DNA of 64,000 nt from Chloroflexus sp. Y-396-1 (GTDB lineage Bacteria > Chloroflexota > Chloroflexia > Chloroflexales > Chloroflexaceae). The notes beneath the pieces are model-generated. The model did not search any database. It had not been told where the DNA came from and saw nothing but the letters and a program-made list of their open reading frames with translations. Below, one piece after another: positions 54,445-61,337 of this stretch (position 1 is its first letter; each line of letters begins with the position of its first letter). The stretch lies in the NCBI RefSeq assembly GCF_000516515.1, contig NZ_KI911784.1, positions 1,334,881-1,398,880 on the forward strand, read 5' to 3'. The position numbers and the translations under genes were made by a program.

Positions 54445-56895
54445 ATGAACATTCAACTCGCCGAACTGATTGCGGCTGGTGGAAAGGTTAGCGGGCCGAT
54501 CCACGCCGATACCTTCACCGATTGGAGTTACGATTCGCGACTCACCGCTGCCGGAGAGTGTTTTATCGCGTTACGCACAGTACGGGCAGATGGACATGAT
54601 TACATTCCGGCTGCGATAGCTGCTGGTGCACGTGGTGTCTTGTGTGTGCGTCCACCGTATGATGCCGGCAATGCGACGGTTATTGTCTGTGATGAGCCGC
54701 AGACGCTCTTGCTGCGCTGGGCGAGTACCCGTTTACAGGTATTGCAGCCGACAGTCATTGCCGTGACCGGTGGGATCGGTAAGACCCTGGCACGGCGAGC
54801 GATTGCGGCCGTGTTAGCTATGCAGGCGCCCACCTTTCAAAGTCGTCGCAATTTCAATTCGCTCCTGGGGCTACCGATTGCGCTAGCCCGTCTTGGTCAG
54901 GCCGACCGCTACGCAGTGCTCGAGTTTGCCGGTGAGCATCTGGCGACGCTGGCAACGGCGTTTCCGCCTCAGATCGCGGTGGTAACACCCGCTGCCGATA
55001 TGGCGATGGCCGCATTCCTGGCCGACAAAGGAGTAATGGTGGTTGCCGCCGAAGGGATTTCACCGGCAAATATCTGCTATGGCACCGGTCGAGAGTGTGC
55101 AGTGCGGGCAACCGATATTTCCTACCACCGTCAGGGGGTGGATTTTGTTGCTTTGAGCCGGGAAGTGACCATTCCCGTTTCAACCCCGCTTTTGGGCCTT
55201 CCCGGTGTTATGGCGGCACTGGCTGCCGTTGCGGTTGGGCTGATATGCGGCGTTCCACCGGAGGCGATCCAACACGCCCTAGCTCATCTTGCAGCACCGG
55301 CAGGACGTTTACATCCATTACCCGGCGCCAATGGTGAACTCATTCTCGATGATAGTTTCAATGCCACTCCAACAGCCATGGTGGCGGCAATGCAAACCAT
55401 GGCTGCATTGCCGGCCAAACGCCGCATTGCCGTTTTAGGTACACCTACCGAATTGCCGGCTATTGATGCGACACCACTACTGACCGAGCTGGGTGCACTG
55501 GCAGCCCGTAGCGCCGATTACCTGGTGCTCAAAGGGGGTGGGGCGGCGGCAATGGCCCAAGCTGCACGGATGACCAATCCCACCATTCCCATTCACGTCG
55601 TTGACACCAACGATGCGGCGCGTGCTGCCTTGCCCGACGAGCGCAACCAGGGCGATCTGGTGTTGGTGTCGGGCGGGGCTGGCGAGCGGCTTGAACAGGT
55701 TGTAGCGCCACTGTTAGCCGCCGACTGTCCGCCAGAACGCAACCTCGTGCGCCAGGAACCGGCCTGGCGTAGTGTACGGATCGGTGATCCGGCGCGTCCA
55801 ACCTGGGTGCATCTCGATCTGACCGCCATTAGCGACAATGTTCGTGCGCTCCGAACGCATGCCGGTGTACCGCTAATGGTTGTGCTTAAAGGCGATGGTT
55901 ACGGTCATGGTGCGGCGCGGGTTGCGCGAGCGGCATTGTGGGCAGGAGCCGAGATGCTGGCCGTTGCGACTCTGGGTGAAGGACGGGCATTGCGTGCACA
56001 GGGTATTCATGCCCCAATTCTGGTGCTGGGCTATACGCCACCATGGCAGGTTGCCGAAGCGATCCATCTCGATTTGATGATTACGCTCTTCGATGGCGAT
56101 ACTGCCCAGGCGCTTAGTAATGCCGCCACCGAAATCAGACGCCCTGCTCGTGTGCATGTCGAAGTTGATACGGGTATGGCTCGTCTAGGCCTCGCGCCGG
56201 CTGAGGTCGCACCATTCCTGACCTGGCTGCGTGATCTCCCCGCTATCGAAGTGGTTGCACTCTACACTCATTTTGCCCGCGCCGATGAAGCCGATCCGAC
56301 CCCAACCGAGCAGCAGTTGGCTCGTTTCCAGACCCTGATCACCGAACTTACCGCAGCCGGTTTACGCCCGCCACTGATCCATGCGGCCAACAGTGCGGCG
56401 ACATTACGCTTTCCGGCCAGCCATTTCGATATGGTTCGACCAGGATTGGCTTGCTACGGATTGGCACCAGGGGCTGCTGTTCCACTCTTGCCGGGCATGC
56501 GGCCAGCACTAAGCTTTTACAGTGAAGTAGCTCAGGTCAAGGAACACCCGCCTGGCGCACCGATCTCCTACGGTGGTACATTTATCACAGCCCGCCCGTC
56601 GCGCATCGCTACCATTCCGGTAGGCTACGCCGACGGTCTGCGTCGTTCACCACCCTGGCGGGAAGTGCTGATTCGGGGGAGACGCGCACCAATTGTCGGG
56701 CGCATTTGCATGGACTATGCTATGGTCGATGTAACCGATATTCCCAGTGTTCAACGTGGTGATACTGTTACGCTCATAGGACAACAGGGCGAGGCTTCAA
56801 TAAGCGTTGATGAGATCGCTGGTTGGCTGGGAACGATCAGCTACGAAGTGCTGACCGGCATCTTACCGCGAGTGCCGCGTGAGATTGAACCGTAA
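54445..56895 (+). CDS. MurF-like/alanine racemase fusion protein
   Basis: The 816-residue protein joins an N-terminal MurF-type Mur-ligase (1-430) to a C-terminal alanine racemase (about 450-816). The racemase is complete: PLP-lysine in VVLKGDGYGHG, second-base Tyr in ISYGGTF, GRICMDYAMVDVTD and YADGLRR. The ligase has a P-loop GGIGKT, RNFNSLLGLPIALARL and ILDDSFNATPTAMVAAM, but the stretch with the conserved His and the carbamoylated-lysine region (AAHLEGFGS...AKGEI in typical MurF) is shortened and altered. Racemase supplies D-Ala; MurF normally adds D-Ala-D-Ala. GGGGA precedes the ATG. Confidence 0.9.
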   Translation: MNIQLAELIAAGGKVSGPIHADTFTDWSYDSRLTAAGECFIALRTVRADGHDYIPAAIAAGARGVLCVRPPYDAGNATVIVCDEPQTLLLRWASTRLQVLQPTVIAVTGGIGKTLARRAIAAVLAMQAPTFQSRRNFNSLLGLPIALARLGQADRYAVLEFAGEHLATLATAFPPQIAVVTPAADMAMAAFLADKGVMVVAAEGISPANICYGTGRECAVRATDISYHRQGVDFVALSREVTIPVSTPLLGLPGVMAALAAVAVGLICGVPPEAIQHALAHLAAPAGRLHPLPGANGELILDDSFNATPTAMVAAMQTMAALPAKRRIAVLGTPTELPAIDATPLLTELGALAARSADYLVLKGGGAAAMAQAARMTNPTIPIHVVDTNDAARAALPDERNQGDLVLVSGGAGERLEQVVAPLLAADCPPERNLVRQEPAWRSVRIGDPARPTWVHLDLTAISDNVRALRTHAGVPLMVVLKGDGYGHGAARVARAALWAGAEMLAVATLGEGRALRAQGIHAPILVLGYTPPWQVAEAIHLDLMITLFDGDTAQALSNAATEIRRPARVHVEVDTGMARLGLAPAEVAPFLTWLRDLPAIEVVALYTHFARADEADPTPTEQQLARFQTLITELTAAGLRPPLIHAANSAATLRFPASHFDMVRPGLACYGLAPGAAVPLLPGMRPALSFYSEVAQVKEHPPGAPISYGGTFITARPSRIATIPVGYADGLRRSPPWREVLIRGRRAPIVGRICMDYAMVDVTDIPSVQRGDTVTLIGQQGEASISVDEIAGWLGTISYEVLTGILPRVPREIEP

Positions 56896-57001
56896 GAATA
56901 CGTTGCCCCGAGCGCAAAAGGAGTTCCACATTGTTTGGGCAGATCCGTGTACAATGGCAATCAACAGCAGCTTCGCGATAAGTGATGGTAAGGAGCAGGC
57001 T

Positions 57002-58567
57002 ATGCTTACCCCGTTTCAAAATGAACCGTTCGGAAATTTTGACAGTGGTGACCGGCGGGCGGCGATGCAGCGGGCGATCCGCCATGTTGCCGGACAACTA
57101 GGCGCCACCTATCCGCTGATCATTGGTGGTGAACGGATTGTGACCGAGCGTAAATTGCCTTCGATCAATCCGGCTGAACCGAAGAAAGTTGTGGGCTACG
57201 CCAGCAGTGCCTCTCAAGAGCATGCCCATCAGGCACTGCTGGCAGCCAACGCCGCATTCCGTACCTGGTCACGCACACCGGTTAGTGCGCGCGCACAGGT
57301 GTTGTTGCGGGCCGCGGCCATTATGCGGCGACGGAAGGAGGAACTGGCCGCGTGGATGATGCACGAGGTGAGCAAGAACTGGGTTGAAGCCGATGCGGAT
57401 GTCGCCGAAGCGATTGACTTTTGTGAGTGGTATGCGCGTCAGGCAATTGCACTTCAGGGCGAACGGCAACCCCTCGTTCCTTACCCCGGTGAGGATAACG
57501 AGTTGCGCTACCTGCCATTAGGGCCTGGGCTGGCGATACCTCCCTGGAACTTCCCGCTGGCAATTGTGACGACACTCACCGTTGCGCCGATTGTCGTGGG
57601 GAATACGGTCGTGTTAAAACCCTCACCACGAGCACCGATCATTGCGGCTATCCTTGTCCAGATTCTCGAAGAGGCTGGTTTACCGCCTGGTGTTGTGAAT
57701 CTGGTGACCGGTGAAGATGCGGTCCTGGGAGATTTCCTGGTCGATCATCCGTTGGTGCGCTTCATTGGCTTTACCGGTTCAAAGAATGTCGGTCTGCGGA
57801 TTCTGCAGCGGGCCGCCGTCCGTCAACCTGGTCAGAACTGGATCAAACGCACGATCCTCGAAATGGGCGGCAAAGACGCAATTATTGTCGATGAAACTGC
57901 CGATCTGGAAGCCGCTGCAACCGGTATTGTGGTCAGTGCGTTCGGTTTTCAGGGGCAAAAATGTAGTGCTTGCTCACGTGCAATTGTCGTTGATCAGGTC
58001 TACGATCAGGTCTTGCAGCGAGTCGTCGAGAAGACGAAGGCGTTGCGGCTAGGGAATCCTACCAAACCAGAAACCGATCTAGGCGCGGTGATTGATCAGC
58101 GGGCCTTTGATACCATTAGCCAGTATATTGCGATAGGCCAGGAAGAGGGAAGACTGGTTACTGGTGGTGAAGTCATCGATCACGAATTGGTTAAGGATGG
58201 TGGCTTTTTTATCAATCCAACCATCTTTGCTGATGTGAAACCTCACGCCCGCATCGCCCAGGAAGAGATTTTTGGTCCGGTCCTGGCCTTCATCCGTGCT
58301 GCGAATTTCACTGAGGCCCTGGCTATTGCAAACGATACTGAATACGGTCTGACCGGTGGTCTTTACAGCCGGAGCCTCGAACGCTTGGAGCAGGCTCGCG
58401 AAGAGTTTCATGTCGGTAATCTCTATTTCAATCGGAAGTGTACCGGTGCTCTGGTTGGAGTGCAGCCATTCGGTGGCTTTAATATGTCAGGCACTGACAG
58501 CAAGGCCGGTGGCACCGATTACCTACGTCTGTTTACTCAGCCTAAGGTCATTAGCGAGCGCTTTTAA
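57002..58567 (+). CDS. pruA: L-glutamate gamma-semialdehyde dehydrogenase (1-pyrroline-5-carboxylate dehydrogenase)
   Basis: About 521 residues from MLTPFQNEPFGNF, chosen for AGGAG 7-8 bp upstream. The start sequence, YPLIIGGERIVTERKLPSINPAEP, and KSSP-free NAD region IPPWNFPLAIVT...KPSPRAP, the glycine loop FTGSKNVGLRIL, LEMGGKDAIIVD and QGQKCSACSRAI (catalytic Cys) match the P5C dehydrogenase group. It oxidises glutamate semialdehyde to glutamate in proline or arginine breakdown. Proline dehydrogenase is not in the window. The DUF72 gene follows 8 bp after the stop. Confidence 0.9.
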   Translation: MLTPFQNEPFGNFDSGDRRAAMQRAIRHVAGQLGATYPLIIGGERIVTERKLPSINPAEPKKVVGYASSASQEHAHQALLAANAAFRTWSRTPVSARAQVLLRAAAIMRRRKEELAAWMMHEVSKNWVEADADVAEAIDFCEWYARQAIALQGERQPLVPYPGEDNELRYLPLGPGLAIPPWNFPLAIVTTLTVAPIVVGNTVVLKPSPRAPIIAAILVQILEEAGLPPGVVNLVTGEDAVLGDFLVDHPLVRFIGFTGSKNVGLRILQRAAVRQPGQNWIKRTILEMGGKDAIIVDETADLEAAATGIVVSAFGFQGQKCSACSRAIVVDQVYDQVLQRVVEKTKALRLGNPTKPETDLGAVIDQRAFDTISQYIAIGQEEGRLVTGGEVIDHELVKDGGFFINPTIFADVKPHARIAQEEIFGPVLAFIRAANFTEALAIANDTEYGLTGGLYSRSLERLEQAREEFHVGNLYFNRKCTGALVGVQPFGGFNMSGTDSKAGGTDYLRLFTQPKVISERF

Positions 58568-58575
58568 GAGTATGC

Positions 58576-59439
58576 ATGATTAGAATTGGATGCGCCGTTT
58601 GGGCTTATAACGGTTGGGTTGGTGATCTCTTTCCACCAGGAACGCGCAGTAGCGAGTTTCTCAAACTCTACAGTCGAAAACTGGCGACGGTGGAAGGAAA
58701 TACAACCTTCTATGCCACACCATCGGTAGCGACGGTGGCGCGATGGGTGGAGGAGACACCACCTATCTTCCACTTTTGTTGTAAGTTGCCGCGAGAAGTA
58801 AGCCATACGGGTTCACTCGCCGAGCGCCTGCCGCAGGCCCGAACCTTTGTTGAACGAATGCAAGGTCTAGGATCGCGCTGTGGCCCGTTCTTCTTGCAAC
58901 TACCGCCGGGCTATGGTCCGGCTCGTCTCGCCGATCTGGAACGTTTTCTAGCCGGCTGGCCGCGTGACGTTGCGCTGGCGGTAGAGGTCCGTCATCCCGA
59001 CTGGTATTTGCCACCAGCCGAGGAATCACTGATGACTCTCCTTAACCGCTATCATGTTGGGCGGGTTGTAATGGATGTTCGTCCAATCCGCGATCCGACC
59101 GATCCGGCCGGATTACTGCTCGCCGATGCCCGTGAGCGCAAACCAGATGTGCCGCTGCGACCGTTGCGCAGCAGTGGGCCAACGCTGGTGCGCTACATCG
59201 GTCATCCCGATCTGGCCCGCAACACGCCGTTTCTCAATGAGTGGGCAGCACGCATCGCAGCATGGGCACAGACCGATCCGCGCATCTATCTGTTTATGCA
59301 TTGCCCTGATGAGGCCCGCTCACCAGACCTCTGCCGCCAGATCGCAGCGCGTCTGCGTGAACGCGGGGCGCCGTTGGTTGAGCCATTGGATGAACCGCCA
59401 CCATCACCAATGCAACTCGATATGTTTGGTTTGCAGTAG
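58576..59439 (+). CDS. DUF72-family (YecE-like) TIM-barrel protein
   Basis: The 287-residue protein has the DUF72 signature: IRIGCAVWAYNGWVGDLFPP, LATVEGNTTFYATPS, FHFCCKLPREVSH, PFFLQLPPGY, LAVEVRHPDWY, VVMDVRP, VRYIGHP and YLFMHCPDEARSP. The fold is a TIM barrel without established activity; some members are associated with metal or nucleic-acid chemistry. It lies 8 bp after the glutamate-semialdehyde dehydrogenase stop and is probably cotranscribed. No catalytic claim is made. Confidence 0.92.
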   Translation: MIRIGCAVWAYNGWVGDLFPPGTRSSEFLKLYSRKLATVEGNTTFYATPSVATVARWVEETPPIFHFCCKLPREVSHTGSLAERLPQARTFVERMQGLGSRCGPFFLQLPPGYGPARLADLERFLAGWPRDVALAVEVRHPDWYLPPAEESLMTLLNRYHVGRVVMDVRPIRDPTDPAGLLLADARERKPDVPLRPLRSSGPTLVRYIGHPDLARNTPFLNEWAARIAAWAQTDPRIYLFMHCPDEARSPDLCRQIAARLRERGAPLVEPLDEPPPSPMQLDMFGLQ

Positions 59440-59762
59440 AGGTGTGGCCGTGTAACAATGCGAAGATGATAGATGAGCCATCATCTACGGTATCGTGTCT
59501 GGTTTACCTTGGACATTGGTCTATGGCTTGCAATTCAATATTGTGGCAGGTAGTCAGCTTGAGCACGTCTCTACTGTGGCTATGATGTGTGTGCCTCTCA
59601 GTAACAGGGAATATGGAGGCAAGGTGTTAAGGTGTCGTTCTGGTGCGACAGGATTCACCGGGGCGGGTTTAGAACCCTCCCCTACCATTCTTGTACCGGG
59701 CTTCAGTTCCGTGAAACGTCGTGGAAATGGTTTCTACTATCACTGCTGAGGAGAAACCACGC
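59440..59762. other. 323-bp leader region of the ProRS-like gene
   Basis: It contains a GGGGCGGGTT-type hairpin (59660-59682) but no T-box specifier or AGGGTGG antiterminator sequence, which might be expected before a synthetase gene. No gene is seen. Confidence 0.6.
59660..59682. repeat. GGGGCGGGTT/AACCCTCCCC hairpin
   Basis: A 10-bp stem with one mismatch and a 3-base loop, closely related to the hairpins at 22596-22616 and 38483-38505. It lies about 80 bp before the start codon. Confidence 0.5.
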
Positions 59763-61337
59763 ATGCGATTTGCTGCCCTCTTTGGTCGTACCCTCCGTCA
59801 GGCGCCGACCGAAGCCGATAATCCGGCAACGCAGTTGCTCTGGCGGGCCGGGATGCTGCGTTCGCTGGATACCGGCGAACCTGCTTTATTGCCGTTGGGA
59901 AATGCGGTTTTGCAGCATCTGATAACCCATCTAACCCATACGCTTCGTCGTAATGGTTCCCAAGAAATCTACCTGCCAACAATGGCGAGTTGGTTGAATG
60001 CGATAACCACTTTGGCCCGCCGTGAGATCGATTCATACCGTCAATTACCGCTGTCTGTCTGGAGCCTGCGCCGCCGCCAACGTGCAACGGTGCGTCAACG
60101 ATCTGGACTGCTCGATCTGCCCGTTGTAACATCCTTGAGCTGGGCAGGGTTAGCACTCGACGTTGCTCAAGCTCAAACGAACCTTGCGGCAACCATTGAA
60201 CAGTTACGCACAACGCTGCACAAATGCGGGCTGATGGTGGTGGGCGATGCGCTCAAGGCGGAACGTGGCGCAACGATCATCGTCGATACACCGGCAGGAC
60301 CGCTCACGACCCTCGATTGTCCGGTTTGTGGGGTACGCACGCCAATCGACCTGGCGCCACTTGCTCCTTTGCCGGAGTATTCCGAGCCAGCGCCGGCTAT
60401 GAGTCTAGTTGAAACACCCAATGCGAATACTATAGCAGCCCTGGCTACCTTCCTTGGCATCTCAACCTCAGCTACGGCCAAAGCTCTTTTCTTCAATGCA
60501 CGTTGTGCTGGTGAGCAGCGACTGATCTTTGCCGTGGTACGTGGCGACCGGGAAGCGAGTCTGGCCAAACTAGCTGCGGTTGTTGGCGCCGACGAACTTT
60601 TGCCTGCCGAAGAAGCACAGATCAGAGCGTGTGGTGCTGTACCCGGCTACGCCTCGCCGGTTGGCCTGCGAGATGTGTTCGTGGTTGCCGATCAGACGGT
60701 CACGAATGGTGCTCCACTCGTAGCCGGAGCAAACCGTCCCGGTTATCATCTGCGCGATGTTGTGTACGGGCGCGATTGGCAAGCCACACTGGTCGCCGAT
60801 ATTGCTCAGGCGGTTGTTGGTGATCCATGTCCATTCTGTAGTACAGCGCGTGCGGAAGGGCATGGCGCAGCAGTTGGTGTTGTAACAACACCACAAGCAA
60901 CCACGCTACTCGTGCAAGATGCCGAGGGGCAAAACCGGCCACTGGTGGTTACAGGGATCGAACTCGATCTTGAACCACTCTTGCACATTGCAGTAGAACA
61001 GAATCACGATGAGCGTGGTATTGTGTGGCCAGTCGCCATTGCGCCGGTCACTGTGCATCTGGTAACGATAGGACGGAGCGATGCGGTCATAACCGCTGCA
61101 CAAACACTGGCCACTGAATTACAGACTGCCGGTTGGACTGTGCTGATCGATGATCGTGATGAACGGGCCGGAGTGAAGTTCAACGATGCCGATCTGATCG
61201 GCGCTCCCTGGCGAGTCGTTATCAGCGAGAAGCTTTTGGCTACAGACCAGGTTGAAATTCGTCATCGCACGGCTAGTCAGCCGACGATTGTGAACAGAAG
61301 CGAACTGAAAGAAGCCCTGCACGACCAGTCGCGGTAG
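59763..61337 (+). CDS. Prolyl-tRNA synthetase paralog with lost catalytic signatures
   Basis: About 524 residues from MRFAALFGRTLRQAP, with GAGGAG 8 bp upstream. The full bacterial ProRS layout is visible: N-terminal class II core (RAGMLRSL...LPLGNAVLQHL...QEIYLPTM), an inserted YbaK-type editing domain (about 215-385: AKALFFNARC, VVRGDREASLAKLAAVVGA, GYASPVGLRD, VAGANRPGYH) and a C-terminal anticodon-binding domain (about 420-520). However, the THEE block is deleted, motif 2 (RDE..R.GLLR.REF) reads RATVRQRSGLLDLPV, and the motif 3 Arg (GIGxxR) is missing in GIELDLEP. It should not aminoacylate; an editing or regulatory role is inferred. Confidence 0.85.
   Translation: MRFAALFGRTLRQAPTEADNPATQLLWRAGMLRSLDTGEPALLPLGNAVLQHLITHLTHTLRRNGSQEIYLPTMASWLNAITTLARREIDSYRQLPLSVWSLRRRQRATVRQRSGLLDLPVVTSLSWAGLALDVAQAQTNLAATIEQLRTTLHKCGLMVVGDALKAERGATIIVDTPAGPLTTLDCPVCGVRTPIDLAPLAPLPEYSEPAPAMSLVETPNANTIAALATFLGISTSATAKALFFNARCAGEQRLIFAVVRGDREASLAKLAAVVGADELLPAEEAQIRACGAVPGYASPVGLRDVFVVADQTVTNGAPLVAGANRPGYHLRDVVYGRDWQATLVADIAQAVVGDPCPFCSTARAEGHGAAVGVVTTPQATTLLVQDAEGQNRPLVVTGIELDLEPLLHIAVEQNHDERGIVWPVAIAPVTVHLVTIGRSDAVITAAQTLATELQTAGWTVLIDDRDERAGVKFNDADLIGAPWRVVISEKLLATDQVEIRHRTASQPTIVNRSELKEALHDQSR

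Follow-up and report, generated by a model that had tools for sequence, protein, structure and literature searches.

The INS editing domain of prolyl-tRNA synthetase (ProRS) hydrolyses Ala-tRNA(Pro) but does not itself discriminate among tRNAs, relying on the reading of G35/G36 by the anticodon-binding domain (ABD) (Das et al., PMC3973320). A lysine is strictly conserved in the INS superfamily and required for deacylation (PMC10164551), and a 2024 review describes the members of this superfamily apart from the ProRS INS domain as single-domain proteins (PMC11295145). We analysed a 64,000-nucleotide stretch of Chloroflexus sp. Y-396-1 (contig NZ_KI911784.1, positions 1,334,881 to 1,398,880; hereafter the window, whose own numbering is used below), which carries a gene for a 524-residue ProRS-like protein with an INS domain and an ABD. 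From its sequence features we propose, with a probability of roughly 0.7, that in this protein a displaced ProRS has become a multidomain factor that edits Ala-tRNA(Pro) in trans.

The coding sequence lies on the forward strand, as do all its features given below, and runs from an ATG at 59763 to a stop codon ending at 61337, with zero internal stops. A Shine-Dalgarno-like GAGGAG (59748–59753), read from the sequence, stands 9 nt 5' of the ATG. Pfam matched tRNA_edit at aa 218–331 (E = 1.6e-22), within an INS (YbaK/ProX-type) editing domain spanning aa 213–350 (60399–60812), and HGTP_anticodon at aa 424–520 (E = 8e-18; 61032–61322), the ABD. The class II catalytic core (tRNA-synt_2b) was not detected by Pfam in the protein. 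NCBIfam models of ProRS family II covered aa 80–521 and scored far below their cut-offs (281 vs 558 bits, and 202 vs 306.7).

Alignment to solved ProRSs and intact relatives located the losses. About 30 residues including THEE are absent after residue 80 (60000–60002). Compared with intact relatives, motif 2 has been rewritten to RATVRQRSGLLDLPV (aa 107–121; 60081–60125), and the motif 3 arginine has become a proline within 'DLEPLL', in the remnant TGIELDLEPL (aa 398–407; 60954–60983). The protein retains 4 of 20 positions of the catalytic signature, and all Chloroflexus copies retain 4–5, while nearly all other relatives score 20/20; the same Chloroflexus copies nonetheless keep Lys240 and the Gly/Pro loop of the INS. 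In class II ProRSs, the THEE loop and the arginines of motifs 2 and 3 bind proline and ATP, so aminoacylation should be impossible. Judged by these positions, the N-terminal part of the core remnant (aa 1–204; 59763–60374) is catalytically dead, though a ProRS fold is still predicted for it. The sequence thus identifies the protein as a bacterial-type (family II) ProRS by descent, with an active site that no longer qualifies as that of a tRNA-charging enzyme, and as a member of the INS/YbaK-ProX superfamily by its domain match and invariant catalytic lysine. It would be a mistake to annotate such genes as proline--tRNA ligase. An earlier note on this DNA had claimed an intact 524-residue frame with a good ribosome site, a recognisable YbaK-type editing insert and ABD, a deleted THEE block, a rewritten motif 2 and a lost motif 3 arginine, all of which are borne out here. 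Its term "full-length" holds for the domain order, with INS and ABD present, but not for the length, as the protein is about 40 residues short of its intact relatives of ~564 aa.

The host genome, a single contig that is 99.98% complete, contains one other ProRS, a 480-aa enzyme of type I (archaeal/eukaryotic-like) with a score of 549 bits (cut-off 437). Its catalytic class II core, anticodon and ProRS C-terminal domains were all recognised, and the INS domain is absent from it. The earlier note had named the absence of any other proS from the genome as part of what would refute it, and this complete enzyme shows that another is present. The note had also called the window protein a paralog, which is inaccurate: rather than a copy of the resident proS, it is a bacterial-type ProRS beside a type-I enzyme. 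Since a complete type-I ProRS exists in the genome, the 524-aa protein is not the charging enzyme, and we rejected the possibility that it is the cell's only one. The bacterial-type ProRS was apparently displaced by the type-I enzyme. Two tRNA(Pro) genes were found, both with the usual bacterial C1:G72 and A73.

All eight Chloroflexus genomes carry the gene together with a type-I ProRS, and the seven other copies have open frames and 66–72% identity. Among 131 genomes of the class, a bacterial-type ProRS was found in 68 and a type-I ProRS in 102. Most bacterial-type copies are intact (20/20), including the aligned ones from genomes without the type-I enzyme, such as Herpetosiphon. Strong decay, defined as 11 or fewer of the 20 signature positions, occurs in the class beyond Chloroflexus in Roseiflexus (g23), G020, G008 and G084, and outside the class in four families (f65, f46, f49, f32) and two Anaerolineae metagenome-assembled genomes (MAGs). 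Milder decay was seen in g5, g31, G019 and G347. The INS lysine is kept in every decayed copy.

Because a full-length tree lumped some decayed sequences by long-branch attraction, we used a tree built from the INS and ABD columns alone (146 sequences). On this tree 27 of the 146 sequences are decayed, falling into 11 clades and requiring 10 parsimony changes, of which three are forced by well-supported branches; a smaller tree gave five changes, again with three forced. We therefore estimate about ten independent losses, with a supported floor of three. A single ancient loss is disfavoured, as the Roseiflexus copies cluster with their intact neighbour G051 with strong support. Within the class, 16 of the 17 genomes with decayed copies have a type-I ProRS; the one without it is a MAG of 82% completeness, and its sister genomes do carry the enzyme. 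Outside the class, all the decayed genomes tested, a set that excludes the MAGs L207 and L214, have it as well. Decay was associated with the presence of the type-I enzyme (Fisher P = 0.006), in a test that treats genomes as unrelated and is partly trivial, since no cell can do without a ProRS.

Two further arrangements were observed in the class. In the Herpetosiphon genome G038, a second bacterial-type ProRS (L113) mirrors the window protein, with all catalytic positions intact and the catalytic lysine of the INS changed to glutamine; it sits beside a fully intact copy in a genome without type-I ProRS. A second bacterial-type copy with intact catalytic positions, again beside a fully intact one and without type-I ProRS, also occurs in G041, G047, G050, G053 and G055, the lysine having been checked in G038. 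The Roseiflexus-genus genome G060 has two different decayed copies (L102, L103), which could reflect duplication or strain mixture.

The frame is under purifying selection in each domain, as the earlier note had supposed. Between close, unsaturated Chloroflexus pairs, dN/dS was 0.06–0.10 for the INS, 0.11–0.15 for the ABD and 0.16–0.37 for the dead core, all well below 1; distant pairs, which are near saturation at synonymous sites, were excluded. Sequencing error or chance was rejected as the source of the pattern in view of these values and of its presence in all eight congeneric genomes with open frames. The ratio of core to INS divergence was 2.04 and 2.17 in the fully decayed groups compared to 0.77–1.25 in intact groups. 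It was already 2.1–2.5 in the mildly decayed g5 and g31, suggesting that these two follow the same path toward decay.

When 51 sequences, decayed and intact alike, were aligned, invariant columns crowded into the INS (T218, P219, T223, I224, T238, K240, R260, G261, D262, G291, G295, G322, A323, N324, H329, R337, D338) and the ABD (D463, R465, G470, D475, G480, P482, R484), the INS being the best-conserved part of the protein. Lys240 (60480–60482) is the counterpart of the INS-superfamily catalytic lysine, K279 in E. coli ProRS. By spacing, I224, L227 and K240 match I263, L266 and K279 of the E. coli INS, which reportedly line the alanine pocket. The INS is also flanked by a CxxC pair (CPVCG, aa 186–190; CPFCS, aa 356–360) that is mostly conserved among relatives, with C186, C356 and C359 nearly invariant in the alignment, and these motifs may bind metal.

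An AlphaFold2 model of the protein had a mean pLDDT of 92.6, and its sole stretch below 50 was aa 109–112, in the motif 2 remnant. The best Foldseek matches were intact bacterial ProRSs, with E = 3e-48 to the Enterococcus faecalis enzyme (2j3l), and VIA-align against the same structure gave Z = 34.6 and a root-mean-square deviation of 5.7 over 513 residues. The model thus predicts that the entire ProRS fold is retained.

In the mechanism that we propose, the former bacterial-type ProRS would have lost proline activation, and mischarged tRNA(Pro) would be supplied by the resident type-I ProRS, which is without an INS. The ABD of the window protein would pick out tRNA(Pro), the INS would hydrolyse the wrongly attached amino acid, most likely alanine, and the dead synthetase core would serve only as scaffold and dimer interface. 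Retention of the ABD would be expected because a ProRS INS without tRNA specificity of its own needs anticodon reading by that domain. The INS with its lysine and the ABD, both held in place by a folded core, would make up a minimal editing kit, which argues for a trans-editing factor clearing Ala-tRNA(Pro); that the INS is active, that alanine is its target and that the core is scaffold only are what we infer from this set of retained parts. Trans-editing is favoured over the bare tRNA binding or regulation that the earlier note had listed beside it, because the INS is best conserved, its catalytic lysine is invariant, and the combination of dead core, INS and ABD appears to have arisen repeatedly.

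Several observations weigh against this interpretation. Alanine mischarging by the type-I enzymes is a putative premise. No tRNA_edit domain was found in several genomes whose only ProRS is of type I (among them G010, G025 and G032, which are 99–100% complete, and G017, G039 and G058), so trans editing is not always required in the group. The ABD and the dead core are likewise constrained, which makes other tRNA(Pro)-binding roles possible. Finally, the tree is weakly supported at its deep nodes, and the changes forced by supported branches number three.

One such role is that of a paralogue acting as a regulator or sensor, in the manner of HisZ or GCN2, which would bind uncharged or charged tRNA(Pro) and control another protein without hydrolysis. 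The retained ABD and folded core would suit it, as would the position of the gene two genes downstream of one for L-glutamate gamma-semialdehyde dehydrogenase (P5C dehydrogenase), an enzyme of proline catabolism. In the window, the P5C dehydrogenase gene and, after it, a DUF72 gene (56879–59439) lie directly upstream of the ProRS-like gene, in an order kept in the examined Chloroflexus loci. It was not kept in the searched loci outside Chloroflexus, and we dropped the neighbourhood as a functional clue on account of this restriction to one genus. The decayed state recurs where the neighbourhood is lost, and in a pure tRNA binder the catalytic site of the INS would not need to be strictly conserved; we therefore regard a regulator as unlikely. 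Farther upstream (54445–56895), one 816-aa frame looks, by eye, like a fusion of a MurF-type ligase with an alanine racemase.

Somewhat less likely still is a dead ProRS that binds tRNA(Pro) and recruits a free-standing Cys-tRNA(Pro) deacylase, its own INS perhaps being secondary. E. coli YbaK gains tRNA specificity in a ProRS:tRNA:YbaK 2:1:1 complex (PMC6344894), and the window protein would replace the bacterial ProRS on which YbaK normally docks. YbaK-like genes are present in this genome and in the Chloroflexus relatives G003 and G006. The one here, the single other INS-family gene in the genome (L004:1429-1842, +; C1 about 3,972,698–3,973,111), leaves its frame near the end, however, and its conserved C-terminal stretch runs on in another frame, so that either the sequence contains an error or this YbaK is broken. 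The INS of the window protein, which keeps its catalytic lysine, is moreover the best-conserved part, and this tells against a docking platform. A YbaK platform and a regulator are possible roles that explain INS conservation less well than trans-editing does. An INS deacylase with another target on tRNA(Pro), such as Cys, Ser or Thr, or an amino acid not used in proteins, is about as improbable as the platform: the relatives YbaK, ProXp-ST1/ST2 and ProXp-x do differ in specificity (PMC11295145), but the INS sequence here falls within the ProRS family, near those of intact relatives that edit in cis, and the residues corresponding to the alanine pocket are retained. The destroyed catalytic motifs might also suggest a decaying pseudogene whose function is gone. 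We rejected this as highly improbable, given open frames in all eight genomes of the genus with neither disruption nor relaxed selection (dN/dS 0.06–0.37), a confidently predicted fold, and recurrence with the INS lysine always retained.

If trans-editing by the window protein is correct, a whole synthetase has been reduced to proofreading, which would be a new architecture in translation quality control. We lean towards the broader view that takeover by type-I ProRS was followed by some ten independent conversions, within Chloroflexota, to multidomain editing-only ProRSs, which would include the first anticodon-reading trans-editor of the INS family. Such proteins would separate the functions of ProRS naturally, editing and reading the anticodon while lacking synthesis, and would bear on how anticodon recognition steers the CCA end toward a distant editing site. 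The repeated losses would provide a natural experiment on why proofreading persists once another enzyme charges the tRNA. We found no earlier account of a Chloroflexus or Chloroflexi ProRS of this kind, or of a catalytically dead ProRS with an INS, in a search outside which most subscription literature lay.

Among described systems, E. faecalis ProRS (2j3l) shares with the window protein the domain order, the fold, the INS between motifs 2 and 3, and the ABD; the window protein differs in having no THEE loop or motif 3 arginine, a rewritten motif 2, and a type-I ProRS alongside. ProXp-ala resembles it in the proposed reaction, in the need created by a charging ProRS without an INS, in the homologous INS fold and in the same lysine. 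However, ProXp-ala stands free as one domain and recognises the acceptor stem (PMC3973320, PMC10164551), whereas the window protein is a three-domain protein of 524 aa with an ABD and a synthetase core, and so falls outside that family. YbaK/EbsC, the Cys-tRNA(Pro) deacylase, belongs to the same superfamily and acts in trans on tRNA(Pro), as proposed here, but is single-domain and without tRNA specificity, and the window protein matches it weakly (21 vs 153 bits). In its proposed mode of action the window protein is analogous to ThrRS-ed, the archaeal Ser-tRNA(Thr) hydrolase, which combines a synthetase-derived editing domain with an ABD and acts in trans to a separate charging enzyme (PMC11295145). 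As far as its sequence tells, the window protein has the same layout, being synthetase-derived, with an editing domain and an ABD, no aminoacylation site and a separate charging enzyme. It is not a ThrRS-ed by descent: its editing domain is tRNA_edit/INS, unrelated to that of ThrRS-ed, and PRK14938 matched weakly, through the shared anticodon domain only. ThrRS-ed also acts on another tRNA, in archaea, while the window protein keeps the whole catalytic-domain fold. Since the known trans-editors of the INS family are single-domain proteins, the architecture described here would be a new variant among them.
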